Assembly (NCBI RefSeq): GCF_000018545.1
Contig: NC_012586.1
Coordinates: 1,674,001-1,738,000, forward strand
DNA length: 64,000 nucleotides
Direction of reading: 5' to 3'
Origin: Sinorhizobium fredii NGR234
Lineage (GTDB): Bacteria; Pseudomonadota; Alphaproteobacteria; Rhizobiales; Rhizobiaceae
A program made the position numbers and the translations under genes. The notes beneath the pieces were generated by a model. That model saw nothing but the letters and a program-made list of their open reading frames with translations, was not told the DNA's origin and did no database searches. Shown one piece after another: positions 502 to 19,991 of this stretch. The stretch's first letter is position 1. Each line of letters starts with the position of its first letter.

Positions 502-1833
502 CTAGTCTGCCCGATCGAGCGCGTCGGCGAGAATCGACATAAGCTCGTCGACCTGCTCCCTCTCGATGGTCAGCGGCGGAGACAGTGCGATGATGTCTCC
601 GGTCACTCGGATGAGAAGGCCGCGCTTGAAACAGTCAACGAAGACGTCGTATGCCCGTGCTCCTGCGGCCTCCGACCGTGAGGCGAGTTCGATCCCCGCC
701 ACCAGGCCGATTGTCCGGATATCGATGACGTTCTTCCGGGACCTCAGGCCGTGAACCGCGTCTTCCCAATAGGTTGCCAGTTCCGACGCGCGGGTGAGCA
801 GAGCTTCCTTCTCATAGATCTCCATCGCCGCCAGTCCGGCGGCACATGCCACCGGATGGCCCGAATAGGTATACCCATGGAACAGCTCGATCTGTGCTTC
901 CGGTCCATGCATCAGGGCGTCATGCACCTTGCTGCTGGTAAAGACCGCACCCATCGGCACGACGCCATTGGTAAGGCCCTTTGCCGTGGTGATGATGTCC
1001 GGTGTCACGCCAAAATAGTCGACAGCGAACGGAGCGCCGAGACGCCCGAACCCGCTGATGACCTCATCGAATATCAGCAAGATGCCGTGCTTGTCGGCTG
1101 TCGCGCGGAGCCGCTCCAGGTATCCCTTCGGCGGCAGCAGGACGCCCGTCGAACCGGCGACTGGTTCGACGATAACCGCCGCAATTGTCTCCGCGCCGTG
1201 CAGCGCGACAAGACGCTCCAGGTCGTCGGCCAATTCCGCGCCATGTTCCGGGAGCCCGCCCTTGGTGAACGGGTTCCTCGCAAGATCGTGAGTGTGACGA
1301 AGGTGGTCCGCTCCCGGAACCTGCGGAAAGACACGGCGGTTATTGACCAGTCCACCGACCGAGATTCCACCGAATCCTACGCCATGGTAGCCGCGTTCGC
1401 GGCCAATAAGGCGAGTACGGGTGCCCTGCCCGATCGCGCGCTGGTAGGCGATCGCGATCTTTAAAGCTGTGTCTACTGATTCCGATCCCGAGCCCGTGTA
1501 GAAGATTCGATCCAGCTTCTTGCCAGGTTCTCCTGGCGCGATCTCGGCCAACTTCTCCGCGAATTGGAACGCGATCGGGTGCCCCATCTGGAACGACGGC
1601 GCGAAGTCCAGTGTGTTCAACTGGCGCTCGACGGCTTGCGAGATCTCCTTGCGTGCATGTCCGGCGTTAACGCACCAGAGGCCTGCGGTTCCATCGAGCA
1701 CCTGATTGCCGTCGATGTCCCGATAATAGACGCCTTCCGCGGAAGCCAGTAGCCGGGGAGCCGCCTTGAACTGGCGGTTCGCCGTAAACGGCATCCAGTA
1801 ATTCTCGAGATTAGGAGTGTTGGTGCGGTACAT
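502..1833 (-). CDS. Class III aminotransferase, omega-amino acid:pyruvate type
   Basis: This is a full-length (443 aa) PLP-dependent fold-type I aminotransferase of class III. The N-terminal block NLENYWMPFTANRQFKA, the segment LDGTAGLWCVNAGH, the IFDEVISGFGR motif that holds the PLP-contacting Asp, and TTAKGLTNG with the Schiff-base Lys are typical of beta-alanine/omega-amino acid:pyruvate aminotransferases. The ATG at 1833 is preferred because AAGGAAAC lies just upstream; an in-frame ATG at 1860 overlaps the stop of the preceding dehydrogenase gene. It is the last enzyme of the operon. By inference it deaminates the primary amine left after two demethylations, for instance a beta- or gamma-amino acid. 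Substrate cannot be read from sequence. Confidence 0.88.
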   Translation of the reverse strand: MYRTNTPNLENYWMPFTANRQFKAAPRLLASAEGVYYRDIDGNQVLDGTAGLWCVNAGHARKEISQAVERQLNTLDFAPSFQMGHPIAFQFAEKLAEIAPGEPGKKLDRIFYTGSGSESVDTALKIAIAYQRAIGQGTRTRLIGRERGYHGVGFGGISVGGLVNNRRVFPQVPGADHLRHTHDLARNPFTKGGLPEHGAELADDLERLVALHGAETIAAVIVEPVAGSTGVLLPPKGYLERLRATADKHGILLIFDEVISGFGRLGAPFAVDYFGVTPDIITTAKGLTNGVVPMGAVFTSSKVHDALMHGPEAQIELFHGYTYSGHPVACAAGLAAMEIYEKEALLTRASELATYWEDAVHGLRSRKNVIDIRTIGLVAGIELASRSEAAGARAYDVFVDCFKRGLLIRVTGDIIALSPPLTIEREQVDELMSILADALDRAD

Positions 1834-1859
1834 GTTGTTTCCTTGTCCGTTTGCCAGCA

Positions 1860-4307
1860 TTACATCTTGGTGCGTTCAGCCTTGGGGTCGTACATCGGCC
1901 TCAGCGAAGCCTCGGCCGGGAACCGTTCACCGGCGATCTCGATCTCGTAGCTGGACGACAGCACGTCGGCTTCGCTCTCGCCGTCGCAGGGCACGTAGCC
2001 AAGCCCGATTGCGCCGCCGAGGTGATGGCCGTAGTTGCCGGAGGTGACGATCGAGACGATCTTGCCATCGCGCACCAGGGCCTCGTTGTGGAACAGCAAC
2101 GGTTCCGGGTCCTTGAGACGGAACTGAACGAGTCGACGCTTCAGCCCCTCTTCGCGTTTACGCAGGACCGCGTCCCGGCCGATGAACTCGCCTTTCGCCG
2201 TCTTCACGGCGAAGCCCAATCCTGCCTCAAGGACGTGATCCTCGTCGGTGATGTCGTGTCCGAAATGCCTGAACGCCTTCTCGATACGGCAGGAATCAAG
2301 GGCATGAAGACCGCACAATTTGAGTCCGGAAGACTTGCCGGCTTCCTCAATCGCCTCGAACACGTGGGCGGTCTGGTCGGAGGAGACGTAGAGCTCCCAG
2401 CCCAGTTCGCCGACATAGGTGACACGATGGGCGCGGGCGAGTCCCATTCCGATTTCGATCTCCTGTGCCGTGCCGAACGGGAACGATTCGTTCGAGAAGT
2501 CGTTGGGGCTCACTCGGGTGATCACATTGCGCGCCTTCGGCCCCATAAGCACCAGAACGGATTCGGACGCCGTGACGTCGGTAATAACCACGAACTCTTC
2601 GGGGCGAAGCTGCTTCCTGAGCCATGCGAGGTCGCGCTGAAGGGTTGCGCCGGGAACGACGGCGAAGAAGGCGGTCTGGGAGAGACGGGTCACGGTCAGG
2701 TCGCTCTCGATGCCGCCGCGCTGATTGAGCATCTGGGTGTAGACGATCCGGCCCGGCTCGACGTCCATCTGATTGGCGCACACCCTCTGCAGGAATGCCG
2801 TCGCATCCCTACCCTCAATCCGGATTTTGCCGAACGAGGTCATATCAAACAGGCCGGCCCCGTTCCGGACAGCGAGATGTTCTTCCTTCTGGTTTTCGAA
2901 CCAGTTCTGCCGCTTCCAGCTATAGCGGTACTCGCGCTCCTGGCCCTCCCTGGCGAACCAGTTCGCACGCTCCCAGCCCGCGACCTCGCCGAAGACTGCG
3001 CCGCGGGCCTTGAGGTGTTCATGCAGCGGGGTGCGGCGGATGCCACGAGAGGTTGCCACTTGGCGGTACGGGAAGTGGTCGGCGTAGAGCAGTCCGAGGG
3101 TCTCCGTGACCCGCTCCTTCAGATACTGCCGGTTGCGCTGGAACGGCTGGGCGCGACGGATGTCGACCTCCCAGAGGTCGAACGGGGGCTCGCCGTCGTT
3201 CATCCACTGCGCCAGCGCAAAGCCAGCGCCACCGGACGAGGCGATGCCGATCGAATTGTAACCGGCTGCGACCCAGTACCCTTTCAGTTCGGGTGCCTCG
3301 CCGAGATAGTAGCGATCGTCCGGCGTGAAGCTCTCCGGGCCGTTGAAGAAGGTGTGGATGCCGGCAGTCTCGAGCATCGGCATGCGGCTCACTGCCTTTT
3401 CGAGGATTGGTTCGAAGTGGTCGAAATCATCCGGTAACTGGTCGAAGCAGAAATCCTCGCTGATGCCTCCCATACCCCAGGGCTTCGCCTTAGGCTCGAA
3501 CGCGCCGAGAAGCATCTTCCCGGCATCTTCCTTGTAGTAGGCGCATTCGTCGGGAACGCGCAGGACCGGCAGACGGGAGAGGCCCTCGATCGCTTCCGTG
3601 ACGATGTAGAAGTGCTCGCATGCATGCAGAGGAAGCGTTACGCCGGAGCTTGCCGCCAGGTCCCTACCCCACATGCCGCCGCAGTTGACGACGAGGTCCG
3701 TCTCGATGGTGCCGCTCTCCTCACCCCGTGCCCAGGCGACACCGGTGACGCGTCCGTCGCGATCGTGAACGGCGGTCACCTTCACGTTCTCGACGACTTT
3801 CGCACCTAGCTGGCGTGCTCCCTTCGCGAGCGCCATCGCGATGTTGGCCGGATCGCATTGGCCGTCACGCGGCAGATGCACGGCGCCGACGACGTCCTCG
3901 ATGTTGAGATGCGGATACATCTCCTTCACCTGCCGGGGCGAGATTTCCTGGACGTCCACGTCGAATGCGCGGGCGAGCGTCGCCTGGCGGTAGATCTCCT
4001 CCTTGCGTTCCTCAGTCAGCGCGACCGTGATGGATCCGTTCTGGCGCATCCCGGTCGCGATGCCTGTCTCCTCTTCCAGTTTGACGTAGAGGTCGGCCGA
4101 ATACTTCGCCAGACGCGTCATGTTCTCGGAGGCGCGCAACTGCCCGACAAGCCCGGCCGCGTGCCAAGTGGTGCCTGACGTCAGTTGCTTTCGCTCGAGG
4201 AGAATAATGTCCTTCCAGCCGAGCTTCGCCAGGTGATATGCGACCGAGCATCCGGAGATGCCGCCACCGATGATGACGACGCGTGCTTTGTTGGGGAGGT
4301 TGGTCAT
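1860..4307 (-). CDS. FAD-dependent dimethylglycine/sarcosine dehydrogenase-like protein (second paralogue)
   Basis: The 815-residue product has the two-part layout of the dimethylglycine/sarcosine dehydrogenase family. An N-terminal DAO-type FAD domain carries the dinucleotide motif VVIIGGGISGCSVAYHLAK and the SGTTWHAAGL segment; the equivalent His binds FAD covalently in the mammalian enzymes. A C-terminal GcvT-like folate-binding domain (from about residue 430) includes GELGWELYV and CGLHALDSCRIEKAFRH. Family members oxidise an N-methyl group, transfer it to tetrahydrofolate as 5,10-methylene-THF and pass electrons to ETF. The ATG at 4307 overlaps the TGA of the upstream paralogue (ATGA), implying translational coupling; an upstream in-frame start at 4337 is less likely. 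The substrate is unknown. Confidence 0.88.
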   Translation of the reverse strand: MTNLPNKARVVIIGGGISGCSVAYHLAKLGWKDIILLERKQLTSGTTWHAAGLVGQLRASENMTRLAKYSADLYVKLEEETGIATGMRQNGSITVALTEERKEEIYRQATLARAFDVDVQEISPRQVKEMYPHLNIEDVVGAVHLPRDGQCDPANIAMALAKGARQLGAKVVENVKVTAVHDRDGRVTGVAWARGEESGTIETDLVVNCGGMWGRDLAASSGVTLPLHACEHFYIVTEAIEGLSRLPVLRVPDECAYYKEDAGKMLLGAFEPKAKPWGMGGISEDFCFDQLPDDFDHFEPILEKAVSRMPMLETAGIHTFFNGPESFTPDDRYYLGEAPELKGYWVAAGYNSIGIASSGGAGFALAQWMNDGEPPFDLWEVDIRRAQPFQRNRQYLKERVTETLGLLYADHFPYRQVATSRGIRRTPLHEHLKARGAVFGEVAGWERANWFAREGQEREYRYSWKRQNWFENQKEEHLAVRNGAGLFDMTSFGKIRIEGRDATAFLQRVCANQMDVEPGRIVYTQMLNQRGGIESDLTVTRLSQTAFFAVVPGATLQRDLAWLRKQLRPEEFVVITDVTASESVLVLMGPKARNVITRVSPNDFSNESFPFGTAQEIEIGMGLARAHRVTYVGELGWELYVSSDQTAHVFEAIEEAGKSSGLKLCGLHALDSCRIEKAFRHFGHDITDEDHVLEAGLGFAVKTAKGEFIGRDAVLRKREEGLKRRLVQFRLKDPEPLLFHNEALVRDGKIVSIVTSGNYGHHLGGAIGLGYVPCDGESEADVLSSSYEIEIAGERFPAEASLRPMYDPKAERTKM

Positions 4308-6751
4308 GCGCGTATTCTTTCGTTTTGCGGGTCCCAAAGTGGGAGGTCAGGCTGGACCGTTGCCCTGTGGCGTTTTCCAAAAATTTCGATTTCAAGCGAT
4401 GTTCCGGGTTCAGCGAGATCAGTGCGAACAACGCCGAGCGCGATCGACCTGTCGATGCGGTGCCCGTAGCCCCCGGAAGTCGTTTCTCCGACGATCTGGT
4501 CGCCGTGCCAGATGATGGACATGTACGGTGCGTCGTATTCGCCAGCGTCGACGGTCATGGTGGCGAAGCGCTTGCGAACGCCCTGCTGTTTCTCGCTCTC
4601 AAGCGCGGACTTGCCGACGAAAGCGGGCTTCTCCCACCGGACAAACCGCTCAAGGCCGCCCTCGAGGATCGAGTAGTCGGTCGAAAGATCGACCTTCCAG
4701 GCACGGTATCCCTTCTCAAGTCGAAGGGAATCCAGGGCGAACATGCCGAAGGGCCTCAGCCCGTGTTCTGTGCCCGACTGCCAGACCGCATCGAAGATCG
4801 CGGCAGTGTCCTCGACCTTGGAATGGATCTCCCAGCCGAGCTCGCCAGCGAACGAGACGCGCACCAGGCGGCAGTCGCGTCCGACGATCCGGGCGGGCTG
4901 GTGTGTAAGCCACCCTTTTGAAAGATCGGCGTCGGCGACCTTCGCCAGAATAGCTCGTGATTCCGGCCCGGTCAGAATCTGGCAGGAGAAGCGGTCGGTA
5001 ACATCGGTGATCCTGATCGTGCTGTCTTTCGGCAGTTGCTTCTCGAGCCACTCGCGGTCGTGCCACTGCGCGACGGCGGCTGTGATCAGGACGAACGCTT
5101 CCTCCTCGATCGCCATCACCGACATCTCGGTGACGATCCTGCCGGCGTCATCGGCGAAGTAAGCGAGCCCGATCCGACCAGGCTTGGGGATCGGCCCAGT
5201 CGTTATGCTGAGAAGCCAGTTGCGGGCTCCCTCGCCCTCAACCCTGAAACGAGAGAATCCAGGCAGATCCAGGATTCCGGCATGGTCGCGGACGGCGTGG
5301 CATTCCTCGCGAACGCGTCTCAGCCAGGGCCCCTCGCGTCGGAAAGTTTCGGTGCTGTGTTCGGATGTGTCGTCCCCCGGATGTGCATACCAGTTCGCGC
5401 GTTCCCAGCCGTTGTAGGGACCGAACTGCCCACCGAGCTCCTTCATTCGATTATGCAACGGCGAGAGTTTGCGGTCGCGTCCGGCGGGCCACACATGGCG
5501 AGGGAAGTGGATCGCGTACTCGTTTCCGTAGATCTCCATGCCCTTGTCGAGACAGTACTGCGGATCCGTGTAGTTGGTGAACCGGCGCGGATCGCAGGAC
5601 CACATGTCCCATTCCGTCTTGCCTTCCGTGACCCATTCGGCGAGCACCTTGCCGGCACCGCCAGACTGGGCAATGCCGAACGTGAACACGCATGCTTCGA
5701 ATGCGTTGGGCACTCCCGGCATCGGGCCGATCAGCGGATTGCCGTCCGGCGTGTATGGGATTGGGCCGTTGATCACTCGCGAAAGACCGGCCGTGCCAAG
5801 GATCGGGACGCGCTCCACGGCGTCGTTCAAGTACCATTCCAGCCGATCCAGGTCGTCCGGATAGAGCTGGAAGGAGAAGTCGTCCGGCATCGGGTCATCC
5901 GGTGTGGCCCAGTGCGCGCGGCAGTTCCGCTCGTAGGGCCCGAGGTTCATCCCCGTCTTCTCCTGCCGCAGATAGTACGAGCTGTCGACGTCTCTCAGGA
6001 GCGGCAGCTTGCGACCGTGTTCCGTGGACCAGGCCGCGAGTTCGGGGATTTCCTCGAACAGAATGTACTGATGGCTCATCACCATCATCGGCACTTCCCG
6101 GCCGAACATACGGCCGACTTCCTCGGCCCGATAACCAGCCGCGTTCACCACGTACTGGCAACGGACATCGCCCTTCTCCGTGCTGATGACCCACTCGTCG
6201 CCATCGCGTCGCACGCCGGTCACAGCGCAAAAACGGACGATCTTCGCGCCCATTTCCCTTGCTCCCTTGGCGAGGGCCTGGGTGAGCTGCGCGGGATCGA
6301 TATCGCCATCGTTGGGATCGTAAAGTGCGCCCTTGAGATCGTGGGTTTCCAGGAAGGGATAACGTTGCTTGATATCGTCGAAGCCGACGATCTCGATGTC
6401 CATTCCCTGGTAGCGGCCCATTGCCTTGACGCGCTGGAATTCGCGCATCCTTTCGTCGGTATGCGCCACGCGCAAGGATCCGGTGACGTGATAGTTCATC
6501 GGGTAATCGACTTCAGCCCCGACACGCTTGTACAGCTCCGTCGAGTAGCGCTGCATGTGCATGATCGACCAGGAGGCTGAGAACGTCGGTACGTTTCCGG
6601 CCGCATGCCATGTCGAACCGGATGTCAGCTCGTTCTTCTCGAGAAGAACGCAGTCCGTCCATCCGGCTTTCGCGAGATGATAGAGGCAGGAGACCCCGAC
6701 GGCCCCGCCTCCAATGATCACTACCCGGGAAGTTGATGGAATTTCAGACAT
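4304..6751 (-). CDS. FAD-dependent dimethylglycine/sarcosine dehydrogenase-like protein (first paralogue)
   Basis: This 815-residue flavoprotein has the same layout as its downstream neighbour. It begins with the FAD-binding motif VVIIGGGAVGVSCLYHLAK, then SGSTWHAAGN containing the likely FAD-linked His. The C-terminal half is GcvT-like, with AGELGWEIHS and the GYRAWKVDLSTDYS block. The two paralogues are clearly related but diverged throughout, so they probably act on different substrates or on successive methyl groups. Translation is coupled to the next gene by a 4-base overlap, and the ETF genes lie directly upstream. Dedicated ETF genes, folD and purU in the same locus fit a tetrahydrofolate-dependent N-demethylase. 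The exact substrate is inferred only as an N-methylated amine. Confidence 0.88.
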   Translation of the reverse strand: MSEIPSTSRVVIIGGGAVGVSCLYHLAKAGWTDCVLLEKNELTSGSTWHAAGNVPTFSASWSIMHMQRYSTELYKRVGAEVDYPMNYHVTGSLRVAHTDERMREFQRVKAMGRYQGMDIEIVGFDDIKQRYPFLETHDLKGALYDPNDGDIDPAQLTQALAKGAREMGAKIVRFCAVTGVRRDGDEWVISTEKGDVRCQYVVNAAGYRAEEVGRMFGREVPMMVMSHQYILFEEIPELAAWSTEHGRKLPLLRDVDSSYYLRQEKTGMNLGPYERNCRAHWATPDDPMPDDFSFQLYPDDLDRLEWYLNDAVERVPILGTAGLSRVINGPIPYTPDGNPLIGPMPGVPNAFEACVFTFGIAQSGGAGKVLAEWVTEGKTEWDMWSCDPRRFTNYTDPQYCLDKGMEIYGNEYAIHFPRHVWPAGRDRKLSPLHNRMKELGGQFGPYNGWERANWYAHPGDDTSEHSTETFRREGPWLRRVREECHAVRDHAGILDLPGFSRFRVEGEGARNWLLSITTGPIPKPGRIGLAYFADDAGRIVTEMSVMAIEEEAFVLITAAVAQWHDREWLEKQLPKDSTIRITDVTDRFSCQILTGPESRAILAKVADADLSKGWLTHQPARIVGRDCRLVRVSFAGELGWEIHSKVEDTAAIFDAVWQSGTEHGLRPFGMFALDSLRLEKGYRAWKVDLSTDYSILEGGLERFVRWEKPAFVGKSALESEKQQGVRKRFATMTVDAGEYDAPYMSIIWHGDQIVGETTSGGYGHRIDRSIALGVVRTDLAEPGTSLEIEIFGKRHRATVQPDLPLWDPQNERIRA

Positions 6752-6816
6752 CTATGTGTCTCCGTTTCAGTGCAAACTGAGATAGGATCCGGCCGATGTT
6801 GTCCAAGCCTTGGAGG

Positions 6817-7764
6817 TTAGAGCGCCCTTTCGAGCTCCGGCAGCACCTCGAAGAGGTCGGCGACCAGGCCGTAGTCGGCGACCTGGAAGATCGGCGCTTC
6901 CTCGTCCTTGTTAATCGCGATGATCACCTTCGAATCCTTCATGCCGGCCAGGTGCTGGATCGCCCCGGAGATGCCGCAGGCGATGTAGAGATCGGGCGCG
7001 ACCACCTTGCCGGTCTGGCCGACCTGCCAGTCGTTCGGCGCGTAGCCGGCGTCGACGGCGGCTCTGGACGCACCGACGCCGGCACCGAGCTTGTCGGCAA
7101 CCGGCAGGATGACTTCCTTGAACTTGTCCGCCGAGCCGAGCGCCCGGCCGCCGGAGATGATGATCTTCGCCGAGGTCAGCTCCGGCCGGTCGGAGGACGA
7201 CAGTGCGTCGGAGACAAACCTGGAGAGATCGGAGAAATTGGCTGTCGTCGAGATTTCCTCGACGACAGCCGAGTTGCCTCCTTGGGAGGCAGACGGGAAG
7301 GCTGCGGTCCGCACCGTGATGACTTTCTTCGGCTCACTCGTCTGCACCGTCTGAATGGCGTTGCCGGCATAGATCGGCCGCTTGAAGGTGTCGGCTGAAA
7401 TCACGTCGATGATCTCGGAGACCTGCGCGACGTCGAGGAGCGCCGCCACCCGCGGCATGACATTCTTGCCGACCGAGGTGGCGGCGGCCACAAGCGTGTC
7501 GTAGGAGCCGGCCAGCGAGAGGATCAGCGCCGCCAGCGGCTCGGCGAGATTGTTGGCAAGGCTTGCGTCGTCGGCGACCAGCACCTTGGATACGCCGGCA
7601 AGCTTCGCCGCCTGTTCGGCGACGGCCTTGGCGCCAGCGCCGGCGACCAGCACATGCACGTCGGCTCCAGCCCCGCTGGCAATCTTCGTCGCTGCCGTCA
7701 GCGCCTTGGCGGTCTGGTCGGAAAGGTTCGTATTGTCGTGGTCAGCCAGCAGCAGAATGGCCAT
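6817..7764 (-). CDS. etfA: Electron transfer flavoprotein alpha subunit
   Basis: The 315-residue protein is a complete ETF alpha subunit (FixB/EtfA). The C-terminal FAD-binding domain is textbook: [55 protein letters not shown] and [18 protein letters not shown]. With EtfB it forms the soluble heterodimer that takes electrons from flavin dehydrogenases and gives them to ETF-ubiquinone oxidoreductase. It is 26 bases downstream of etfB and 65 bases upstream of the first dimethylglycine-dehydrogenase-like gene, so it is probably the dedicated acceptor for those enzymes. This pair is more likely locus-specific than the housekeeping ETF, but that needs a genome-wide comparison. Confidence 0.96.
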
Positions 7765-7790
7765 GATTTAAGTCTCCCGTTCCTAAAACT

Positions 7791-8540
7791 TTAGAGAATG
7801 CCGGCTTCGCTCTTGAGCTTCTCGACGAGCTCGGCGACCGACTTGACCTTGATACCCGCCTTGCGGCCGGACGGCTCCTCGGTCTTCAAGACCTTCAGCC
7901 GCGGCGCCGTATCGACCCCGAAGTCGGCCGGGCTCTTCTTGTCGAGCGGCTTCTTCTTCGCCTTCATGATGTTCGGCAGCGAGGCATAGCGCGGTTCGTT
8001 CAGGCGCAGATCGGTGGTGACCACCGCCGGCAGCTTCAATTCGACGGTCTGCAGACCGCCGTCGACCTCGCGGGTGACGTTGACCTTGCCGTCACCGAGC
8101 TCGACCTTCGAGGCGAAGGTGCCCTGGGCCCAGCCCAAGAGCGCGGAGAGCATCTGGCCGGTCTGGTTCGAATCGTCGTCGATCGCCTGCTTGCCGACGA
8201 TGATCAGCCCCGGCTGTTCGGCCTCGGCCACACCCTTGACGATCTTGGCGACAGTGAGCGGCTCGACCTGGTCGTCGGTCTCGACGAGGATCGCCCGGTC
8301 GGCGCCCATGGCGAGCGCGGTCCTCAGCGTTTCCTCGGCCTTGGCCGGGCCGATCGAGACGACCACCACTTCGGAAGCCTTGCCGGCTTCCTTCAGCCTG
8401 AGCGCCTCTTCGACGGAGATCTCGTCGAACGGGTTCATCGACATCTTGACATTGGCGAGCTCGACGCCGGTGCCGTCCGCCTTCACCCGGATCTTGACGT
8501 TGAAGTCGACCACTCGCTTGACTGGCACTAGTATTTTCAT
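7791..8540 (-). CDS. etfB: Electron transfer flavoprotein beta subunit
   Basis: The product is a full-length ETF beta subunit (249 aa from the chosen start). It opens with [19 protein letters not shown], has [18 protein letters not shown] and the AMP-binding [16 protein letters not shown] segment, and ends in the usual Lys-rich tail. An in-frame ATG 12 bases upstream (8552) is possible, but MKILVPVKR is the conserved family start and a GGAG lies before it. The gene is 25 bases after the last permease gene and 26 bases before etfA, so it belongs to the same transcript. It forms the ETF heterodimer with EtfA. Confidence 0.96.
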
Positions 8541-8565
8541 GACTGGCTCCATGGTTGTCCGGCGT

Positions 8566-9384
8566 TTAGTGGGCAGAGTTTGGGTTATTGATGCGCTGCT
8601 GGCGGGCTTGCAGTGCGTTCGCGGTCAGCATGAGAGCGGCAGCGACGATGATGAGCAGCGTGGCGACTGCTGTGATCGCCGGACTTATCTGCTCTCTCAG
8701 TCCGCTCCACATCTGTCGGGGCAAGGTCTTCTGCTCGGCTCCGGTTATGAACAGCGCGACCACGACGTCGTCAAACGAAGTGACGAACGCGAAGATTGCG
8801 CCGGAGACGACACCCGGCATGATGATTGGCAGCATCACCCGCCGGAATGCGGTCACCGGCGGTGCTCCAAGACTGGCCGCGGCGCGCATCAGGCGGTGAT
8901 CGAAACCCGCCAAAGTCGCGGCCACGGTGATCATCACGAACGGCGCTCCGAGTGCAGTATGGGAGAGCACGAGACCTGTCAGCGTATTCAGCAGCCCGAT
9001 GTCCGCGTAGAAATAGAAGATGCCTACCGCGGCAACGACGAGCGGAATGACGATCGGCGAGATGATGATCGCCGAGAGCGCCATCCTCCACGGACAGTCC
9101 GGGCGGTTCAGCCCGATCGCAGCCAGGGTGCCAAGCGCGGTTGCCAAAACCGTCGCGAGCGCAGCCACGATGAAGCTGTTGCGCGCCGAGAGCTGCCAGT
9201 CGACCGAGGCGAACACGGCTTCGTACCAGCGTAGCGAGAAGCCGGGCATGGGATATGTGAAGAACGGCTCCGAATTGAAGGACAACGGTATGATTGCCAG
9301 GATGGGAGCCATCAGGAAGACAAGCACCACGCCCGCGAATATACGCAGCGTCCACCTTGCAGGCGTTGCTTTTCCGACGCTCAT
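8566..9384 (-). CDS. ABC transporter permease, PotC-like
   Basis: This is an inner-membrane permease of the spermidine/putrescine (PotC) class, 272 residues with about six transmembrane segments. The first helix is at residues 13-33 ([20 protein letters not shown]), and the EAA loop for contact with the ATPase is [20 protein letters not shown]. The ATG at 9384 overlaps the stop of the other permease by 4 bases. The open frame continues upstream to about 10002, but that part is only a shadow of the other permease gene. With its neighbours it forms a complete importer for the compound processed by the operon, presumably a polyamine-like or methylated amine. Confidence 0.9.
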
Positions 9385-10674: not shown

Positions 10675-10701
10675 AGGGCGGAAGAGAGACCCCTCCGCCC
10701 T
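10675..10701 (-). terminator. Intercistronic hairpin between binding-protein and permease genes
   Basis: Arms 10675-10682 and 10694-10701 form a perfect 8-bp GC-rich stem with an 11-base loop. It lies just after the binding-protein gene and before the permease genes. Such hairpins usually stabilise the upstream message or partly attenuate transcription, giving more binding protein than permease. A similar structure occupies the same place in the second ABC operon (57658-57689). Confidence 0.55.
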
Positions 10702-10708
10702 GTCTCAG

Positions 10709-11776: not shown

Positions 11777-11807
11777 CGTTATTCCCCTTCGTTTTGGTGA
11801 TGGTCAC

Positions 11808-12935
11808 TCATGCTTTCGCCGTCGCCGCGTGCTCGCGAGTGAGCGCGGGGCAGTCGTCGAAATTCCAGCCGATGAGCACGTTTGCGCCGGGCGACACGTC
11901 TGCCGGGACACCGTGGCCATTCGGGATCTTGATGATGATTTCTTCGGAACCGAGCGCCGCCACCCTCACCCGGACATGGTCGCCGAGATAGATGAGCTCT
12001 CTGACACTGGCTTTGATGTTGTTCGCCCTGTCGGAGGTGTGGCCGATCCTTATCCTTTCCGGACGGATTGACAGGGTCGTTTTCTCGCCGGCTGCAAGCG
12101 GTGCGCCCACTGCCGCCTTTATCGTCTGGCGATCACCGTCGATCTGGACCGTGCAATGCGGACCCGAGACGTCGAGGATGGTGCCGTGAAGCGCGTTGTT
12201 GTCGCCAATGAACTGGGCCACGAATGGGTTGGCAGGACGTTCGTAGACGTCGGCGGGCTTGCCCAACTGCTGGATCCGTCCCTTGTCGAACACCGCGATG
12301 CGGTCGGACATCGTCAACGCCTCGCTTTGATCGTGAGTGACGTAGACGATCGTGATCCCGAGCCGCTCGTGGAGGTGCTTGATCTCGATCTGCATGTGCT
12401 CGCGGAGCTGCTTGTCCAAGGCTCCGAGCGGCTCGTCCATGAGCACGAGGGACGGCTCGAAGACGAGCGCGCGAGCCAGCGCGATGCGCTGCTGTTGGCC
12501 TCCGGAAAGCTGCGCCGGCCTGCGGCCGGCGAACTTGGCCATCTGAACCATGTCGAGCGCGGCCTCGACCCTCGCCTTCTGGTCGGCTTTTTCGACCTTC
12601 CTCATCTGAAGCGGAAACGCGACGTTCTCCGCGACTGTCATATTGGGAAACAGGGCGTAGTTCTGAAAAACGACGCCGATGTTGCGTTGGTGAGGCGGCA
12701 GCCGTTCGATCGGCTTGCCGTCTAGAATGATCCTGCCCGCGGTAGGCATTTCGAAGCCAGCCAGCATCATAAGGGACGTAGTTTTCCCTGAACCGGAAGG
12801 TCCCAGCATCGTCAAGAACTCCCCGCGGCGGATCGCCAAGTCCAATCGCTCGACGACGATGGTCACACCGTCATATGTTTTCTCCACGCCTTCGAAGCGT
12901 ACGAGATCGCCGTTGATGCGCGGCTCGGGGTTCAT
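11808..12935 (-). CDS. ABC transporter ATP-binding protein, PotA-like
   Basis: This is a 375-residue importer ATPase. Walker A is GPSGSGKTT (about residues 45-53), the signature motif is [15 protein letters not shown], Walker B is [11 protein letters not shown] and the switch His is in YVTHDQSEA. The C-terminal third is a TOBE-type regulatory domain. The frame is open upstream to 13046, but the ATG at 12935 gives the conventional N-terminus for this class, and the extra residues are unlike the family. It is the first gene of the long minus-strand operon, opposite a divergent XRE-cupin regulator, so its upstream region is the likely promoter. Confidence 0.93.
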
Positions 12936-13350
12936 GGCCGCGCCCCCCGAATGTCCATGCTGGACTGACGGAGCCGGGGAGCCATCAGCCCAAGAAAATT
13001 GGTACGCAGCTTCCCGTTCGGGAAAACGCCAAGATCGGCGTCCCAATCAAAGTTTCGCATTTTTCCACTCCGAGGTTGTCTCGGCCCGTCTTTTTTCCCT
13101 TCAAATGGGGCGGTGCCGTCGCGTCCATAAACCGGACGTGGAAAAACCTTGTCATAAAAAAATTGGTTTTACAAGCGTGAAAAAAAGCACTTGATTTTTC
13201 ATGATTATGAAGACAACATCATGGAGACAGCAAAATCGTTCGAAAAAATATAGGCGACAATTTCATGAACGACGATTCTTGCACGATGAGTGATTGTCTG
13301 TGCCCCCTGCGCGGATGTAACTATTCATCATGTTTTCATGAGGAATAGCC
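12936..13350. promoter_or_regulatory. Divergent control region between the transport/demethylation operon and the XRE-cupin gene
   Basis: This 415-base gap contains an AT-rich core (about 13130-13270) unlike the surrounding GC-rich genes. The octamer TTTCATGA occurs three times (13197-13204, 13261-13268, 13334-13341), the middle one extending into the palindrome TTCATGAA. The last copy is just before the ribosome site of the regulator gene. These are candidate operators for the XRE-cupin protein. No confident -35/-10 pair could be assigned on either strand. Confidence 0.5.
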
Positions 13351-13956
13351 ATGCCCCCCAGGACAATGCGCAGAGCGGATGAGTGGAACGTCGCTGAAGC
13401 AGTAGAAGAGATGGCCATTGGAGGACAGATCAGGGAGTTGCGCAAGGTCAAGGGTCTGACCCTCCAGCAGGTCGCAGACGCCGCTGACGTATCAGTTGGC
13501 TATCTCAGCCAGATTGAGCGCAATCAGACGAAACTCCCGATCGGCGTGCTGAAAAAGATCAGCGATACGCTTGGGGTGCACATGAACTGGTTCTTCCACG
13601 GCAGTGATGTTCCGGCACAGGAAAAGGACGTTGTCGTTCGCTCACACAATCGCCGGAAGTTCACTTTTACGGGCCTGGGAATCGAAGAGGAACTGCTGTC
13701 GCCGAATCTGAGCGGCCCCTTGGAAATGCTGTTGAGTACGATCGAACCGGGCGCGGATAGCGGCGATTACAGCCATGACGGTGTCGAAGCCGGGTTGGTC
13801 ATATCGGGGAGACTGGACTTGTGGGTCGCAGGACAGTTCTTCCAACTCGAGGAAGGCGACAGCTTTTCGTTCAAGAGCACGGAAATACATCGCTGCCGCA
13901 ATTCGGGCGACAAGCCGACGAAGGTCGTCTGGGTGATCACTCCCCCGCATTACTGA
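13351..13956 (+). CDS. XRE-cupin transcriptional regulator
   Basis: The 201-residue protein has an N-terminal XRE helix-turn-helix (about residues 26-80: IRELRKVKGLTLQQVADAAD, then VGYLSQIERNQTKLPIGVL) and a C-terminal cupin_2 domain (about residues 125-196: GLVISGRLDLWVAGQFFQLE, then EGDSFSFKSTEIHRCRN). This layout is that of ligand-responsive repressors such as PuuR, which control amine or amino acid catabolism. The start at 13351 has a GAGGA ribosome site; an internal ATG at 13411 is an alternative. It is divergent from the operon and upstream of purU, so it is probably the pathway regulator, sensing the imported compound or a breakdown product. Confidence 0.92.
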   Translation: MPPRTMRRADEWNVAEAVEEMAIGGQIRELRKVKGLTLQQVADAADVSVGYLSQIERNQTKLPIGVLKKISDTLGVHMNWFFHGSDVPAQEKDVVVRSHNRRKFTFTGLGIEEELLSPNLSGPLEMLLSTIEPGADSGDYSHDGVEAGLVISGRLDLWVAGQFFQLEEGDSFSFKSTEIHRCRNSGDKPTKVVWVITPPHY

Positions 13957-14088
13957 TGCGGGCGACTAGTTAAGGGGACCGCAACCACACGGTCATCGCA
14001 AAATCGGCAAGAAACGGCCACCGCTTCGCATGGCGAAAGCGGCGAAGGCGTAGCTATGCCTTCGTCTGGCAACCAAGGGAACCAAAGC

Positions 14089-14940
14089 ATGCCATCGAAT
14101 TTTACACTCACTTTGTCCTGCGAGGACCGCCCCGGAATCGTCGCGGCAGTGACAACCGAACTCGCCGCGTGTGGCGCCAACATCGCCGAGAGCAACCAAT
14201 TTTGGGACCGGCAATCGAATCGCCTGTTCATGCGGATTGCATTCACCGCGCCAGAGAAGATCAGCAGGGATGACGTCGAACGCTCCTTGAAGCCTGTCAC
14301 CGACCGTTTCGATATGAAGACGAAGCTGGTTGATAGCGATCGCAAGCCGAAGATCATCATAATGGTCTCGAAGTTCGACCATGCGATGCTCCACCTTCTG
14401 TATCAGATCCGGGTCGGCTGGCTGAACGCAGAAGTGGCGGCCATCGTTTCCAATCACGAAGACAGCGCCGCGACTGCAAAGCTGGAGGGCATTCCCTATT
14501 ACCATTGGAAGGTGACCAAGGAGAACAAGGCCGAACAGGAGGAGCGGCTTATCGAGCTGGTTCGCGACACCGGTGCCGACCTCATGATCCTCGCGCGCTA
14601 TATGCAAGTTCTATCGGACAACCTGTCGACGCGGCTTTTCGGCAAGGTCATCAACATACACCACTCGTTCCTGCCGTCTTTCAAGGGCGCCAAGCCTTAC
14701 CACCAAGCGTTCGACCGCGGCGTTAAGCTCATCGGCGCGACTTCGCACTATGTGACGCCCGATTTGGACGAGGGTCCGATCATCGAACAGGAGACCGAAC
14801 GCGTCACCCATGCCATGACCGCGGATGACTTCGTCGCCACGGGCAGAGACATCGAGAGCCGTGTCCTTGCGCGCGCCGTCAAGATGCACCTCGAGTGCCG
14901 GGTCATGCTCAATGGGCATAAGACGATCGTGTTTTCGTGA
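14089..14940 (+). CDS. purU: Formyltetrahydrofolate deformylase
   Basis: PurU hydrolyses 10-formyl-THF to formate and THF. The 283-residue product has an N-terminal ACT domain ([20 protein letters not shown], then [10 protein letters not shown]) and a C-terminal formyltransferase fold with [20 protein letters not shown] and [12 protein letters not shown], which contain the conserved Asn, His and Asp of the family. The ATG at 14089 is preferred over 14056 because AAGGGA precedes it at good spacing. Next to folD and THF-dependent demethylases, its likely job is to release C1 units as formate and regenerate free THF, rather than purine supply. Confidence 0.95.
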
Positions 14941-14947
14941 GGCGGCG

Positions 14948-15871
14948 ATGAGCATCGGGTGCAAGTTGATCTCCGGACGGGAGGTCGCGGAATCAATCAT
15001 CGATCAGGTCAAGGCTCATACCGTAGCGCTCTCTGCCAATGGCATCACGCCTGGACTCGCGGTGATAATTGTCGGCAGCGATCCCGCGAGCCAGGTCTAT
15101 GTCGCTTCCAAAGGCAGGAAGGCCGAAGAATGCGGTTTTCTGTCCATTAAACACGAGCTGCCACACGATGTCCCGGAACGTCGATTGCTCGAACTGATCG
15201 ACTCCCTGAATGCGGATCCCTCGATACACGGCATTCTCGTCCAGTTGCCGCTTCCCCGACATGTCGATTCCGGAAAGGTCATCCAGGCGATCTCTCCCCA
15301 AAAGGACATCGACGGCTTCCATTTCATAAATGTGGGCAAGCTGGGTACGGGTGCTCTCGAAACGGCGTTCGTTCCCTGCACTCCGGCAGGCTGCATGATC
15401 CTTGTCGAAAGGATTCACGGGAAGGACTTGTCGGGGCTGTCGGCTGTCGTTGTCGGCCGCTCCAACATCGTGGGCAAGCCGATGGCCAATCTGCTTCTCG
15501 CCGCTAACGCCACTGTCACCATCGCTCATAGCAGGACCGCGAATCTGGAAGTGCTCTGCCGTCAGGCCGACATCCTTATTGCGGCGGTAGGACGGCCTGA
15601 GATGATCCGGTCCGATTGGATAAAGCCTGGCGCGACCGTGATCGACGTGGGGATCAATCGCATCGCGTCGAGGGACGACGGCGGAAAAACGCGCCTTGTT
15701 GGGGACGTCGATTTCGACGGCGCGGTAGAGCGCGCCGGAGCGGTCACGCCGGTGCCCGGCGGTGTCGGACCGATGACCATCGCGATGTTGATGGCGAACA
15801 CGCTGCGTGCTGCCTGCCACGCCAACGATGAACCAGCCCCTCACTTCGGATCCGGTGGAGTCCTTAGATGA
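14948..15871 (+). CDS. folD: Bifunctional methylene-THF dehydrogenase/methenyl-THF cyclohydrolase
   Basis: FolD oxidises 5,10-methylene-THF to methenyl-THF and hydrolyses it to 10-formyl-THF. The 307-residue protein shows [14 protein letters not shown] with the catalytic Lys, [49 protein letters not shown] and the final [19 protein letters not shown], all family hallmarks. It starts 7 bases after purU and its TGA overlaps the ATG of the ETF-quinone oxidoreductase gene. An upstream extension of the frame to 14825 is a shadow of purU. It joins the demethylases (which make methylene-THF) to PurU. Confidence 0.96.
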
Positions 15872-17529
15872 GCGACCAACGCCTCCCCGAGCGCGAGAGC
15901 ATGGAATTCGACGTGGTGATCGTCGGCGCCGGTCCGGCGGGCTTGGCCGCAGCGATCCGGCTGAAGCAGGTCAATCCGGAGCTCTCGGTCGTCGTGCTCG
16001 AGAAGGGCGCCGAGGTCGGCGCCCATATCCTCTCCGGCGCCGTCGTCGATCCAATCGGTATCGACCGGCTGCTGCCGGACTGGCGCAACGACGCCGACCA
16101 TCCGTTCAAGACCGAGGTTACCGACGACCACTTCCTGTTCCTCGGCCCGGCCGGCTCGATCCGCCTGCCGAATTTCCTGATGCCGCCGCTGATGAACAAT
16201 CACGGCAACTACATCGTCTCGCTCGGCAATGTCTGTCGCTGGCTGGCGACGAAGGCGGAGGAACTCGGCGTCGAGATCTATCCGGGCTTTGCCGCGACCG
16301 AAGTGCTCCACAACGACGAGGGCGCGGTGATCGGCGTTGCCACCGGCGACTTGGGGCTGGAGCGTTCCGGCGAACCGGGGCCGAACTTCGCCCGCGGCAT
16401 GGCGCTCTTGGGCAAATACACGCTGATCGGCGAGGGGGTGCGCGGCTCGCTCGCCAAGCAGCTGATCGCGAAATTCGATCTTTCGAAGGATCGCGACGTC
16501 CAGAAATTCGGCATCGGCCTCAAGGAACTCTGGGAGGTCAAGCCGGAGAACCACAGGCCGGGCCTGGTGCAGCACTCGTTCGGCTGGCCGCTCGGCATGA
16601 AGACCGGCGGCGGCTCGTTCCTCTACCATCTCGAGGACAACCTCGTCGCCGTCGGCTTCGTCGTGCATCTGAACTACAAGAACCCCTGGCTCTACCCGTT
16701 CGAGGAGTTCCAGCGCTTCAAGACGCATCCGGCGATCCGCGGCACCTTCGAGGGCGGCAAGCGGCTTTCTTACGGCGCCCGGGCGATCACCGAGGGCGGC
16801 TACCAGTCGGTGCCGAAGCTGTCCTTCCCGGGTGGGGCGCTGATCGGCTGCTCGGCCGGCTTCGTCAACGTGCCGCGCATCAAGGGCAGCCACAATGCCG
16901 TCTTGTCGGGCATTCTCGCCGCCGAGAAGCTGGCGGCGGCGATCGCTTCCGGCCGCGCCAATGACGAGCCGATCGAGATCGAGCGCGGCTGGCGCGACAG
17001 CGCCATCGGCCAGGACCTGAAGAAGGTGAGGAACGTCAAGCCGCTGTGGTCGAAGTTCGGCGCGGCGATCGGCGTGGCGCTCGGCGGCCTCGACATGTGG
17101 ACCAACACGCTGTTCGGCCTCTCCCTGTTCGGCACGCTGAAGCACGGCAAGACCGATGCCCAGTCGCTGGAGCCGGCCGCCAAGCACCAGAAGATCGACT
17201 ATCCGAAGCCGGACGGGGTGCTGACCTTCGACCGGCTGTCGTCGGTGTTCCTGTCGAACACCAACCATGAGGAAGACCAGCCGATCCACCTCAAGGTCAA
17301 GGATCCGGAGCTGCAGAAGCGCTCGGAATTGGAGGTCTATGCCGGTCCGTCGACGCGCTACTGTCCGGCCGGCGTCTACGAATGGGTCGAGAAGGACGGT
17401 CAGCCGGTCTTCGTCATCAACGCCCAGAACTGCGTGCACTGCAAGACCTGCGACATCAAGGACCCCAACCAGAACATCAACTGGGTGCCGCCGCAGGGCG
17501 GCGAAGGCCCGGTCTATCCGAACATGTGA
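15868..17529 (+). CDS. Electron transfer flavoprotein-ubiquinone oxidoreductase
   Basis: This 553-residue membrane-associated enzyme takes electrons from reduced ETF to ubiquinone. It begins with an FAD-binding motif ([20 protein letters not shown], about residues 13-32). The quinone-facing central region includes [22 protein letters not shown]-terminal 4Fe-4S domain has the cysteines CPAGVYEW and [13 protein letters not shown], ending in [18 protein letters not shown]. All cofactor motifs are present. Translation is coupled to folD by ATGA. It closes the electron path from the two dehydrogenases through EtfAB. Rhizobia normally carry another chromosomal copy, so this may be a pathway-specific paralogue. 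Confidence 0.97.
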
Positions 17530-17615
17530 CGTCCGGTAGGCAATTGTCAGGTGCCGTCCAGGCGGACCCTCCTGATGGGAGCAAATTGTGAGCATTCGAC
17601 GAGAGGAGCGTGGAA

Positions 17616-18674
17616 ATGCGAAACATGAGAACAGCGGAAAGGCTATTTAGTCTGTATTTGCTCCCGGACTTTTCGCTACTGGCCCTCTCCTCCGCGATCG
17701 AGGTGTTGCGTTTAGCGAATGAAGTAGTCGGTTCGACAAGATACAAGTGGCGTATCATATCCGGTAACGGCGAACCCGTTTCCTCGAGTTGTGGCATGCG
17801 CGTCACCGTTGACGCTTCCCTGCCCTACGAAAGGGAGCAACTAGGAAAGTCCGCGGGGCCGTCGATGGCTGTTGTATGCGGCGGTGGGACCACTCCCGAT
17901 GCTTTCAAACCTCTCGATACCTGGCTGCGCGAGTGCCGCAACCACCGCGTTGCACTCGCCGGACTTGCGAGCGGCACGTTTATTCTGGCGCGGGCCGGAC
18001 TAGCCGACGGCCGACGATGTGCGATCCACTGGGAGCATTTCCCAAGCTTCTCGGAGGAATTTCCGGATATCGAGGCCCAACAAACCACATTTGAAGTCGA
18101 TGGGGACTTGCACACTTCTCCTGGTGGCGATGCCAGCTTTGATATGTTCCTCAACTATGTTGAGGAAGACAGCGCCCGGATTGTTGCTAACCGGGTGTGT
18201 GAGAAGGCGATGGTCGACCGGGTGCGCGACCCGGGTGAACGACAGCGATTGCCCCTTCAGGCTCGGGTCGGCATCAATCATCGAGCCCTGATCAGAGTTA
18301 TCGAGCTGATGGAGGCCAATGTCGCTGAGCCTCTTACGCTTGCGCAAATGGCTCCCTCGAGCGGCCTCTCACGCCGGCAGATCGAGCGAATATTCCACCA
18401 GGAGATGGGACGCTCCCCGGCAAGGTACTATCTGGAGTTGCGTCTGGAACGAGCGCACCTGCTCCTTCTAAGCTCGCCGCTTCCGGTCATTGATATTGCG
18501 ATGGCATGCGGCTTCATCTCTGCATCCCACTTCTCGAAGACTTATCGCGAGACATATGGATGCTCGCCGCAGCAGGCACGCATTGCCGCGGCCGAGCGGC
18601 GAAGAGTTCAGCATGCTTCATCTCACGCTCACTCGCGACCCGCCGTCCAGGCCTTGTCCGCATGGGCGGGGTAG
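17616..18674 (+). CDS. GlxA-type AraC-family transcriptional regulator
   Basis: The 352-residue protein joins an N-terminal DJ-1/PfpI-like (class I amidotransferase-like) domain to a C-terminal AraC/XylS DNA-binding domain. The first begins LFSLYLLPDFSLLALSSAIE and includes LAGLASGTFILARAGLADG. The second (about residues 225-330) contains LTLAQMAPSSGLSRRQIERI and VIDIAMACGFISASHFSKTY. This is the GlxA layout used by regulators of glycine betaine, carnitine and dimethylglycine catabolism (GbdR, CdhR, SouR types). A GAGAGGAG site favours the ATG at 17616. Its place among C1 and ETF genes fits control of a methylated-amine pathway; effector and target are unknown. Confidence 0.92.
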   Translation: MRNMRTAERLFSLYLLPDFSLLALSSAIEVLRLANEVVGSTRYKWRIISGNGEPVSSSCGMRVTVDASLPYEREQLGKSAGPSMAVVCGGGTTPDAFKPLDTWLRECRNHRVALAGLASGTFILARAGLADGRRCAIHWEHFPSFSEEFPDIEAQQTTFEVDGDLHTSPGGDASFDMFLNYVEEDSARIVANRVCEKAMVDRVRDPGERQRLPLQARVGINHRALIRVIELMEANVAEPLTLAQMAPSSGLSRRQIERIFHQEMGRSPARYYLELRLERAHLLLLSSPLPVIDIAMACGFISASHFSKTYRETYGCSPQQARIAAAERRRVQHASSHAHSRPAVQALSAWAG

Positions 18675-18716
18675 CAGAACCCCGCACCATACCTCTTTGC
18701 GTGGAAAGGTTTGCCG

Positions 18717-19991
18717 ATGGAATTGCTGGCCCAATCTGCTCAGATGGCCTTGAAGATGCGATCCGATGCCAGGGACATTTTCCTTGCAGGGGTCGAAGCT
18801 GTGGACCCTGCCCGCGCCGTAGATGTCGCCCTAAGGCAGAAGCAGGCGGCGCTCGCCAAGGCACATCAGGTCATGATCGTTGCCTTCGGACGCGCGGCCT
18901 GCGCGATGGCCGAAGCGGCGATGAGTGCCATCGGAGACAAGATCGGCAAGGCCGTGGTTGTTACCGACCACGAGAACCTGCGACCTGTCGAAGGCGCCCG
19001 AACATTATGTGCCGGCTATCCGGCCATCGATCCCGGTGGGATGCTTGCAGCTTCGGAGGTGGAACTGGCGGTTTCGGCCGCGACCCCGAAGGACATGGTT
19101 CTGGTTCTCGTCAGCGCCGGCGGACCTGCAATGCTGTGCGCACCGCCATTTGGCATCAGTCTCGGCGCAAAAATCAGGCTTCAGGACATGCTTGTCCGCG
19201 AAGGCGCAGACATGAAGGAAATCCTCGCCGTACGCCACGCGGTTTCGAGGATCAACGACGGCCGACTGGCGGAGAAGGCTGGCGGTGCTCAGGTCTTGTC
19301 CATGATCTACTCTGATGTCTCAGGCGACGAGATCATCGCGGTAACGCAGGGACCGACGGCTAGGCTTTTTCAGCGAAACGCGACGGCGATTGGAGTGCTA
19401 GAAAAATACGGGCTGGTTGGTCGCACAGACCGAGCTATCCTCGACTATATCAGATGTGCCCATGAAGGGAGGGCACACGCTGGTGGCAGCATTGAAAACC
19501 TGATCATTGGCGGCAATGGCGTGAGCCTGAACGCGGCTGCTGCGCATGCCGCGAAGTGTCATGGCCCGGCCCTGATGGGACAGCATCGGGTGGATGAAGA
19601 CGCCGCCGTTGCCGCAGAGCAGCTTCTGGTCCTCGCTCGTGAAGTTGGCTCAGGTGACGGCCCCCTGGCCTTGGTTTCCGGACGCGTGGCGCGCGGCGGG
19701 CGTAATCACGAGATCGCACTTCGGTTCGCCCTTCTGGCCGAACGTGAGCCTCTAGCTCGTCCCTGGGTTTTTCTTAGTGGCAATACGGACGGGCGGCACG
19801 GCCCGCACAGGTCCGTCGGGGCGATCGTCGATCGGGGCTCCTGTTCCTGGATGCGTCAACTCGGGATCGATCCACGCCGGCAGTTGACGGCGGGCGATGC
19901 GTCGTCCGTGCTCGCAACTTCGGGTGACCTGCTGCTGATCGGCGATACGGCCTCCAACGTCACGGACATAGAACTGATCCTGCTGGGATAG
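18717..19991 (+). CDS. Glycerate 2-kinase, type II (MOFRL family)
   Basis: The 424-residue product resembles the GckA/TtuD family, long annotated as hydroxypyruvate reductase but largely glycerate 2-kinases (glycerate + ATP to 2-phosphoglycerate). Visible markers are KAHQVMIVAFGRAACAMAEA, LVLVSAGGPAMLCAPPFGIS, VRHAVSRINDGRLAEKAGG, and in the C-terminal MOFRL domain GRVARGGRNHEIALRFALL and LSGNTDGRHGPHRSVGAIVD. The start at ATG 18717 has GGAAAGG upstream; TTG 18711 is an alternative. The usual GETTV-like motif before the RGGRN block is replaced by LVSGRVA, a mild departure. In a C1 locus it could receive glycerate made from serine through hydroxypyruvate; this link is inferred. Confidence 0.85.
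   Translation: MELLAQSAQMALKMRSDARDIFLAGVEAVDPARAVDVALRQKQAALAKAHQVMIVAFGRAACAMAEAAMSAIGDKIGKAVVVTDHENLRPVEGARTLCAGYPAIDPGGMLAASEVELAVSAATPKDMVLVLVSAGGPAMLCAPPFGISLGAKIRLQDMLVREGADMKEILAVRHAVSRINDGRLAEKAGGAQVLSMIYSDVSGDEIIAVTQGPTARLFQRNATAIGVLEKYGLVGRTDRAILDYIRCAHEGRAHAGGSIENLIIGGNGVSLNAAAAHAAKCHGPALMGQHRVDEDAAVAAEQLLVLAREVGSGDGPLALVSGRVARGGRNHEIALRFALLAEREPLARPWVFLSGNTDGRHGPHRSVGAIVDRGSCSWMRQLGIDPRRQLTAGDASSVLATSGDLLLIGDTASNVTDIELILLG

Follow-up and report, generated by a model that had tools for sequence, protein, structure and literature searches.

Mitochondrial dimethylglycine dehydrogenase (DMGDH) uses tetrahydrofolate (THF) and the electron transfer flavoprotein (ETF). In bacteria, the accessible passages of the papers cited here describe two further systems. 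On the nicotine plasmid pAO1 of Paenarthrobacter nicotinovorans, FolD and PurU lie beside a THF-linked N-demethylase that yields gamma-aminobutyrate (GABA) (PMC6214936). Glycine-betaine clusters of Pseudomonas, Vibrio natriegens and Colwellia comprise gbcAB, dgcAB-fixAB, soxBDAG, glyA, purU and glxA, and in V. natriegens the GABA-shunt homologues gabT and gabD are located between the two glycine-betaine clusters (PMC12093977, PMC3691474). Here we describe a gene cluster of Sinorhizobium fredii NGR234, whose genome of 6,891,900 bases is in three contigs. The cluster occupies positions 502-19991 of a 64,000-nucleotide stretch (positions 1674001-1738000 of contig C2, NC_012586.1; hereafter the window) and combines an importer, two tandem N-demethylase-like proteins (DH1 and DH2), EtfAB, ETF:ubiquinone oxidoreductase (ETF-QO), FolD, PurU and a class III aminotransferase. 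It is best explained as a horizontally spread catabolic cluster. Three points are new: a DMGDH-type tandem that occurs together with an AptA-type aminotransferase and a GABA/opine-type importer; the conservation of this combination as a plasmid unit with a palindrome; and its place in an exchangeable cassette, which is treated tentatively below.

The locus resembles mabO-folD-purU of pAO1, which serves 4-methylaminobutyrate, in having a plasmid-borne THF demethylase together with FolD and PurU, leading to formate (PMC6214936). In contrast to the single operon of pAO1, its demethylases and FolD/PurU lie in two divergent runs. As far as the descriptions can be compared, pAO1 has one demethylase, an oxidase, where the cluster has two proteins along with EtfAB and ETF-QO; the accessible passages on pAO1 name no dedicated importer or aminotransferase, whereas the cluster has both (PMC6214936). 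With the glycine-betaine clusters it shares genes for serial N-demethylation, ETF subunits, PurU and a GlxA-type regulator, but those clusters have DgcAB and SoxBDAG where this one has the DMGDH-type tandem, and they send glycine to serine by GlyA; neither FolD nor ETF-QO is listed among their members in the passages accessible (PMC12093977, PMC3691474). DH1 and DH2 give full-length matches to PDB 5l46, 4pab and 4p9s and differ from the mitochondrial enzyme in being two tandem proteins of one operon. Alphaproteobacterial DH1-DH2 loci with MttB, BHMT or Rieske genes contain the same family pair (DH1 49-78% identical), but EtfA, EtfB, FolD, PurU and ETF-QO matches were found in 0 of the 111 DH1 loci compared, at the identity thresholds applied and within the flanks available, some of which end at contig ends. 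The aminotransferase is of the same family as AptA and the omega-amino acid / beta-alanine:pyruvate aminotransferases 4uhm, 4b98 and 3a8u, its best PDB relatives (full-length matches), and here it is found inside an N-demethylation operon.

A search of titles and abstract openings in the open-licence literature, with supplements and subscription papers outside its scope, found no publication on this locus and no relevant paper for PDB 8jv1, 8jv2, 7xjm or 7xjn. No passage in the main text of the NGR234 bacteroid paper names dimethylglycine, sarcosine, ETF or formyltetrahydrofolate.

Gene content and proposed route

All 15 genes are open, and they form two divergent, closely packed runs whose starts are separated by a 415-base gap. 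The leftward run reads ATPase, binding protein, two permeases, EtfB, EtfA, DH1, DH2 and aminotransferase; the rightward run reads XRE-cupin regulator, PurU, FolD, ETF-QO, AraC regulator and kinase. Searches of open reading frames (ORFs) and protein families located every gene named in a preliminary description of this DNA, to which the two regulators are additions. The features are as follows.

502..1860, minus strand: class III omega-aminotransferase, AptA / beta-alanine:pyruvate type (clears the NF052567 AptA cut-off, 718.1 bits vs 500)
1860..4307, minus strand: DH2, FAD- and folate-binding N-demethylase (Pfam DAO, FAO_M, GCV_T, GCV_T_C; PDB 4p9s)
4304..6751, minus strand: DH1, FAD- and folate-binding N-demethylase, dimethylglycine-dehydrogenase-like (same four Pfam domains; PDB 5l46)
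6817..7764, minus strand: EtfA, electron transfer flavoprotein alpha (ETF and ETF_alpha domains)
7791..8540, minus strand: EtfB, electron transfer flavoprotein beta (ETF domain; start picked by inspection)
8566..9384, minus strand: ABC permease, PotC-like (NF007047 PotC, 173 bits, under the cut-off of 326; a longer ORF was scored)
9381..10643, minus strand: ABC permease, PotB/PotH-like (family matches)
10709..11776, minus strand: substrate-binding protein, GABA-receptor/opine-type branch of the PotD fold (sequence and AlphaFold model comparison)
11808..12935, minus strand: ABC ATPase, PotA subfamily (TIGR01187, 387.5 bits vs 355.6; scored ORF 11808-13046)
13177..13202, plus strand: candidate palindromic operator GTGAAAAA-N10-TTTTTCAT in the divergent intergenic gap (motif search)
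13351..13956, plus strand: XRE-cupin regulator, PuuR-like architecture (HTH_3 and Cupin_2; NF007408 PuuR, 67.7 bits, under the cut-off of 211)
14056..14940, plus strand: PurU formyl-THF deformylase (TIGR00655, 323.5 bits vs 285.95)
14948..15871, plus strand: FolD methylene-THF dehydrogenase/cyclohydrolase (NF010785, 474 bits vs 396)
15868..17529, plus strand: ETF-QO (Fer4_ETF_QO and ETFQO_UQ-bd)
17610..18674, plus strand: GlxA-type AraC regulator, GbdR-like, accessory (misses the NF052371 GbdR family cut-off, 301 vs 480 bits)
18711..19991, plus strand: DUF4147/MOFRL glycerate 2-kinase-like protein, accessory (Pfam)

Start and stop codons overlap by one or four bases at four junctions. The four-base overlaps are between the permeases (9384/9381), DH1 and DH2 (4307/4304), and FolD and ETF-QO (15871/15868); DH2 and the aminotransferase share one base at 1860, with an alternative aminotransferase start possible at 1833 behind AAGGA. 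The GC content across the cluster is 0.58-0.62 in 4-kb steps, and no clear compositional island was seen at this resolution.

Each of DH1 and DH2 contains its four domains in one chain. The best PDB match of DH1 is the mitochondrial DMGDH 5l46 (582.6 bits) and that of DH2 the dimethylglycine dehydrogenase 4p9s (479.5 bits). The TWHAAG motif, which we take to be the histidyl-FAD motif of dimethylglycine dehydrogenase-type demethylases, is present in both, as GSTWHAAGN in DH1 and GTTWHAAGL in DH2. Structure work consisted of one AlphaFold model and two fold searches, on the binding protein (mean pLDDT 91.0). The modelled fold is of the GABA/opine type, being close to MotA, SAR11 PotD-GABA, Atu4243 and iGABASnFR, and polyamine-binder entries rank under this group. 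Polyamine import as a default assignment was rejected, the protein scoring far under the PotD and PotF equivalog cut-offs (34.3 vs 582 and 33.4 vs 636 bits). By-eye mapping from pairwise alignments indicates that the GABA-site residues W9, R205, D228 and Y264 of Pf622 are kept and that position 102 is F, the state prior to the sensor mutation F102Y, whereas three further site positions are changed (see below).

On family grounds, the cluster very probably encodes an importer acting before DH1 and then DH2, with electrons passing through EtfAB and ETF-QO to ubiquinone and the C1 unit through FolD and PurU to formate, which bears out the corresponding route of the preliminary description. The binding protein, two permeases and ATPase would bring in a short zwitterionic N-methylated amino acid. 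DH1 would then strip the first methyl oxidatively and DH2 the second, the carbon going in both cases to THF, as methylene-THF, and EtfAB receiving the electrons, and FolD and PurU would convert methylene-THF to formate and free THF. The aminotransferase may shift the freed omega-amino group onto pyruvate, yielding a semialdehyde that dehydrogenases encoded outside the cluster would finish. The XRE-cupin protein may govern both runs through the palindrome at 13177. It should be mentioned that the reactions are assigned from family knowledge; the substrate, the order of DH1 and DH2, the direction of transamination and the operator function are assigned less firmly.

The description of the locus as self-contained did not hold. 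Two more ETF-QO genes, 97% identical, bring the genomic total to three, other EtfA copies are 88% and 83% identical, and four PurU genes exceed the cut-off, so that PurU and ETF-QO of the cluster are extra and not unique copies. A formate dehydrogenase alpha subunit (C3:3242734-3244761) and a methylmalonate-semialdehyde dehydrogenase (C3:386207-387643), both over cut-off, are encoded on another contig. One PurU gene over cut-off lies 0.2 kb past the right window end (C2:1738180-1739010).

Conservation on plasmids and a possible modular cassette

A neighbourhood search of the kind suggested in the preliminary description was carried out by tblastn of plasmid records. The five best records are the same for DH1 and for the binding protein: Agrobacterium vitis CG957, A. 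tumefaciens H25/79, Rhizobium leguminosarum 31B, R. ruizarguesonis TP15 and R. leguminosarum RCAM0626 (L111-L115). The 13-gene order from ETF-QO through the aminotransferase is kept on all five, and because of this preserved order the combination is not due to chance. Protein identity of the unit to the window is 69-90% in L111-L114; several genes of L115 (RCAM0626) are frameshifted and match in pieces at 50-89%. The AraC regulator and DUF4147 kinase come next in the three Rhizobium records only, where the kinase is just 31-32% identical and the regulator is split in L114. Both are missing from the two Agrobacterium copies and are thus accessory rather than core; the glycerate 2-kinase that had been counted as part of the combination is present at 18711-19991 and does not belong to its core. 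The 13-gene unit is rare: 6/394 sampled Rhizobiaceae genomes, its own included, have the XRE regulator at E <= 1e-60, and 5 of the 970 plasmid records that match the binding protein do so at >=80% identity. To the right of the cluster, an IstB-type transposition ATPase (31115-31852) and a large serine recombinase (33871-35955) form a possible trace of mobility.

A palindrome in the divergent gap is shared in an alignment of the window with five loci (L111-L114 and L200). The form GTGAAAA-N-TTTTCAC adjoins the regulator in L111-L115, L200 and L208, and it was found in 3/80 of the best genome-contig loci (L004, L038, L066) and in none of L202-L207, L210, L117, L118, L160 and L161. With the motif GTGAAAAA-N10-TTTTTCAC at <=2 mismatches, the window has a single site, at 13177-13202 with 1 mismatch, and 100 shuffles have 0. 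The exact palindrome has no copy in the window or in its genome, which counts against an operator. We infer that the XRE-cupin protein may bind at 13177-13202.

Related loci keep the back end of the cluster and vary its front end. Plasmid p449297 of Paracoccus seriniphilus (L160) has a taurine/sulfonate-type transporter, DH1 (59%), DH2 (66%), EtfBA, FolD and PurU adjoining xsc, and is a candidate N-methyltaurine or N,N-dimethyltaurine cluster. In pAt1D1609a of A. tumefaciens 1D1609, DH2 alone (89%) is found with EtfAB, the regulator (78%), PurU (53%), FolD (62%), glycine-betaine transporter genes and GbcA/GbcB-like genes under their cut-offs; a pSymA locus of S. meliloti AK57 resembles it, with frameshifts. 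EtfBA-PurU-FolD-ETF-QO recurs on pSfreNXT3a of S. fredii NXT3 (L202, 6684-26503), where two other class III aminotransferases accompany a 46% DH2 relative, and in A. tumefaciens LN-1 (L210, 6932-16042), with a 50% DH2 relative. L202 represents another cassette front end, with two other transporters besides a phosphotransferase and an SDR, and L210 has a MerR-annotated regulator and a DMGDH-like protein, with DapA-like and amino-acid transporter genes close by.

EtfA was rejected as a marker of the cassette, as it has matches at E <= 1e-110 in 341/384 Rhizobiaceae genomes; the XRE regulator is a better one. Among the other five loci with that regulator, matches to EtfAB, FolD and PurU are missing from L204-L207, which contain DH2 or DH1-DH2, and L203, a contig of 3.7 kb, has a 49% PurU. 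In L205 and L207, a 69% XRE regulator adjoins DH1 and a 355-aa frame, a zinc-type alcohol dehydrogenase in L205, lies between DH1 and DH2.

We tentatively propose, below even confidence, that the NGR234 cluster encodes an undescribed N,N-dimethylated omega-amino acid pathway and is one head of a modular plasmid cassette of EtfBA, PurU and FolD, with or without ETF-QO and the XRE-cupin regulator, whose transporter, end enzyme and DMGDH-type demethylase would be exchanged according to the substrate. The substrate here would be dimethyl-beta-alanine or dimethyl-GABA, which may in turn derive from beta-alanine betaine or gamma-butyrobetaine; as part of the same proposal the heads would cover glycine betaine, (hydroxy)proline-type betaines, methylated taurine and omega-amino acids.

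Substrate of the demethylases and competing explanations

The evidence on the substrate conflicts, pointing to an omega-amino acid on one side and to dimethylglycine and sarcosine on the other. The GABA-receptor-like binding protein and the AptA / beta-alanine:pyruvate-type aminotransferase argue for an omega-amino acid. Our best guess is an N,N-dimethylated one, either dimethyl-beta-alanine or dimethyl-GABA, and we consider this assignment about as likely as not. The preliminary description had preferred a methylated beta- or gamma-amino acid, for example a homobetaine or gamma-butyrobetaine derivative. Its omega-amino-acid part is backed by these two proteins and opposed by the likeness of DH1/DH2 to a pair that is usually found in glycine-betaine demethylation neighbourhoods. 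Its betaine part gives way to a dimethyl or monomethyl compound, which fits better than a true betaine because no trimethyl-ammonium demethylase (GbcAB, BHMT, MttB) was seen among the best 25 matches for each of the 15 cluster proteins.

Several observations weigh against an omega-amino acid substrate. The top fold match of the binding protein, 4i1d, has no stated ligand, and MotA and AgtB of the same fold group bind opines. By the same by-eye mapping, the GABA site is changed at T13 (Y42), F100 (V131) and W202 (Y238). Of 118 binding-protein homologues compared, 117-118 keep residues R241, W267 and Y301, which therefore mark an amino-acid-like, not specifically omega, ligand. No semialdehyde-processing enzyme is encoded in the cluster, its AraC regulator is GbdR-like, and the aminotransferase of L112 (H25/79) is broken and shortened. 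MttB, BHMT or GbcA-like neighbours are found in 58/80 near DH1 loci (the best 80 of at least 597 genome-contig matches) and 23/31 distant ones, 81/111 in all. The distant loci came from a 385-genome class sample, from which 33 were fetched and L194 and L195 (DH1 43-45%) left out. These are raw counts, for which the comparison is 0/7 for MttB, BHMT or GbcA in the aminotransferase-centred loci L152-L158; tblastn was used on the latter since an ORF-based look may miss genes under longer antisense frames. Given these neighbours, and with no EtfA, EtfB, FolD, PurU or ETF-QO match in the 111 loci at the thresholds and within the flanks noted above, the usual job of a DH1/DH2-type pair is most likely conversion of dimethylglycine to sarcosine and glycine. 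A 54% AptA-type aminotransferase match lies about 3 kb from DH1-DH2 in L184, at a contig end.

The strongest result against a new substrate is the near-lack of clade-specific substitutions in the demethylases, R75K and K666R in DH1 and C596V in DH2. With only these 2 + 1 changes, DH1/DH2 divergence was rejected as a mark of a new substrate. The DH1 contrast used 89/89 loci, with 5 plasmid sequences including the window against 83 others, L159 and L160 being held apart; the DH2 contrast used 63/89, with 4 plasmid sequences against 58 others, L111 and L118 missing and rows dropped for stops, <50% identity or a span of <700 residues. The corresponding contrast for the aminotransferase, 4 plasmid vs 30 other sequences, showed six substitutions and one insertion.

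These results bear most directly on the possibility that the cluster is a second unit of the glycine-betaine route, importing N,N-dimethylglycine and sarcosine and demethylating them to glycine with both methyls going to formate, while the aminotransferase and glycerate kinase process glycine- or serine-derived carbon or are incidental. We regard this as rather unlikely. The neighbour counts, the scarcity of diagnostic substitutions and the GbdR-like regulator speak for it, as does L200 (DH2 89%, regulator 78%, with the palindrome), which has genes for glycine-betaine transport and GbcA/GbcB-like genes below cut-off. A further pair in the genome, on contig C3, is 77% (DH1) and 84% (DH2) identical and adjoins an MttB-family gene whose solved relatives include a glycine betaine methyltransferase, which likewise speaks for it. 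Against it, the genome already has that other pair; the cluster has no GlyA, serine dehydratase or glycine-cleavage gene, its aminotransferase belongs to an omega-amino-acid family and its binding protein is of GABA/opine type. DH2 stands without DH1 in L200, L201, L204 and L208, with betaine transporter genes close by in L200 and L208, which suggests that DH2 may take the last methyl and DH1 the preceding one.

The remaining explanations carry less weight. It is improbable that the cluster is a loose assembly in which the aminotransferase belongs to another pathway and the demethylation, folate and ETF genes jointly serve some methylamine. The broken L112 aminotransferase would agree with it, as would the 78-81% aminotransferase homologues of L152-L158, seven 20-kb loci without a DH1 or DH2 match; yet the aminotransferase gene overlaps the DH2 stop and keeps this place in L111, L113, L114 and, frameshifted, L115. 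Similarly improbable, finally, is another N-methylated amino acid, such as an N-methylated proline or hydroxyproline or an N-methylated opine-like conjugate. In L200 and L208, DapA-like and proline/betaine transporter genes are found close to DH2 relatives of about 86-91%, L200 also has an aldehyde dehydrogenase, and MotA and AgtB, which bind opines, belong to the fold group of the binding protein; however, the cluster has no recognised gene for ring opening or opine cleavage, and N-methylproline needs neither two demethylases nor an omega-aminotransferase.

Other genes of the window and significance

The window holds a second catabolic locus at 54847-63974, with a Pot-type ABC transporter, aldehyde dehydrogenase, luciferase-like monooxygenase, flavin reductase and alpha/beta hydrolase; a similarly annotated gene set is close to a 69% binding-protein homologue in Rhizobium indicum (L116). 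At 39567-45269, two LuxR-type response regulators come after a MASE1/multi-PAS histidine kinase of 1333 aa, and a UDP-glycosyltransferase-like protein with an EryCIII-type C-terminal domain is encoded at 29262-30476.

The cluster is a clear test case for whether a DMGDH-type pair accepts substrates beyond glycine derivatives. If the dimethylated omega-amino acid proposal is true, the cluster would supply genes by which methylated omega-amino acids are broken down, and THF/ETF-linked N-demethylation would be a plasmid module that plant-associated bacteria exchange. The substrates of many proteins annotated as dimethylglycine dehydrogenase would then be predictable from the transporter and the end enzyme.

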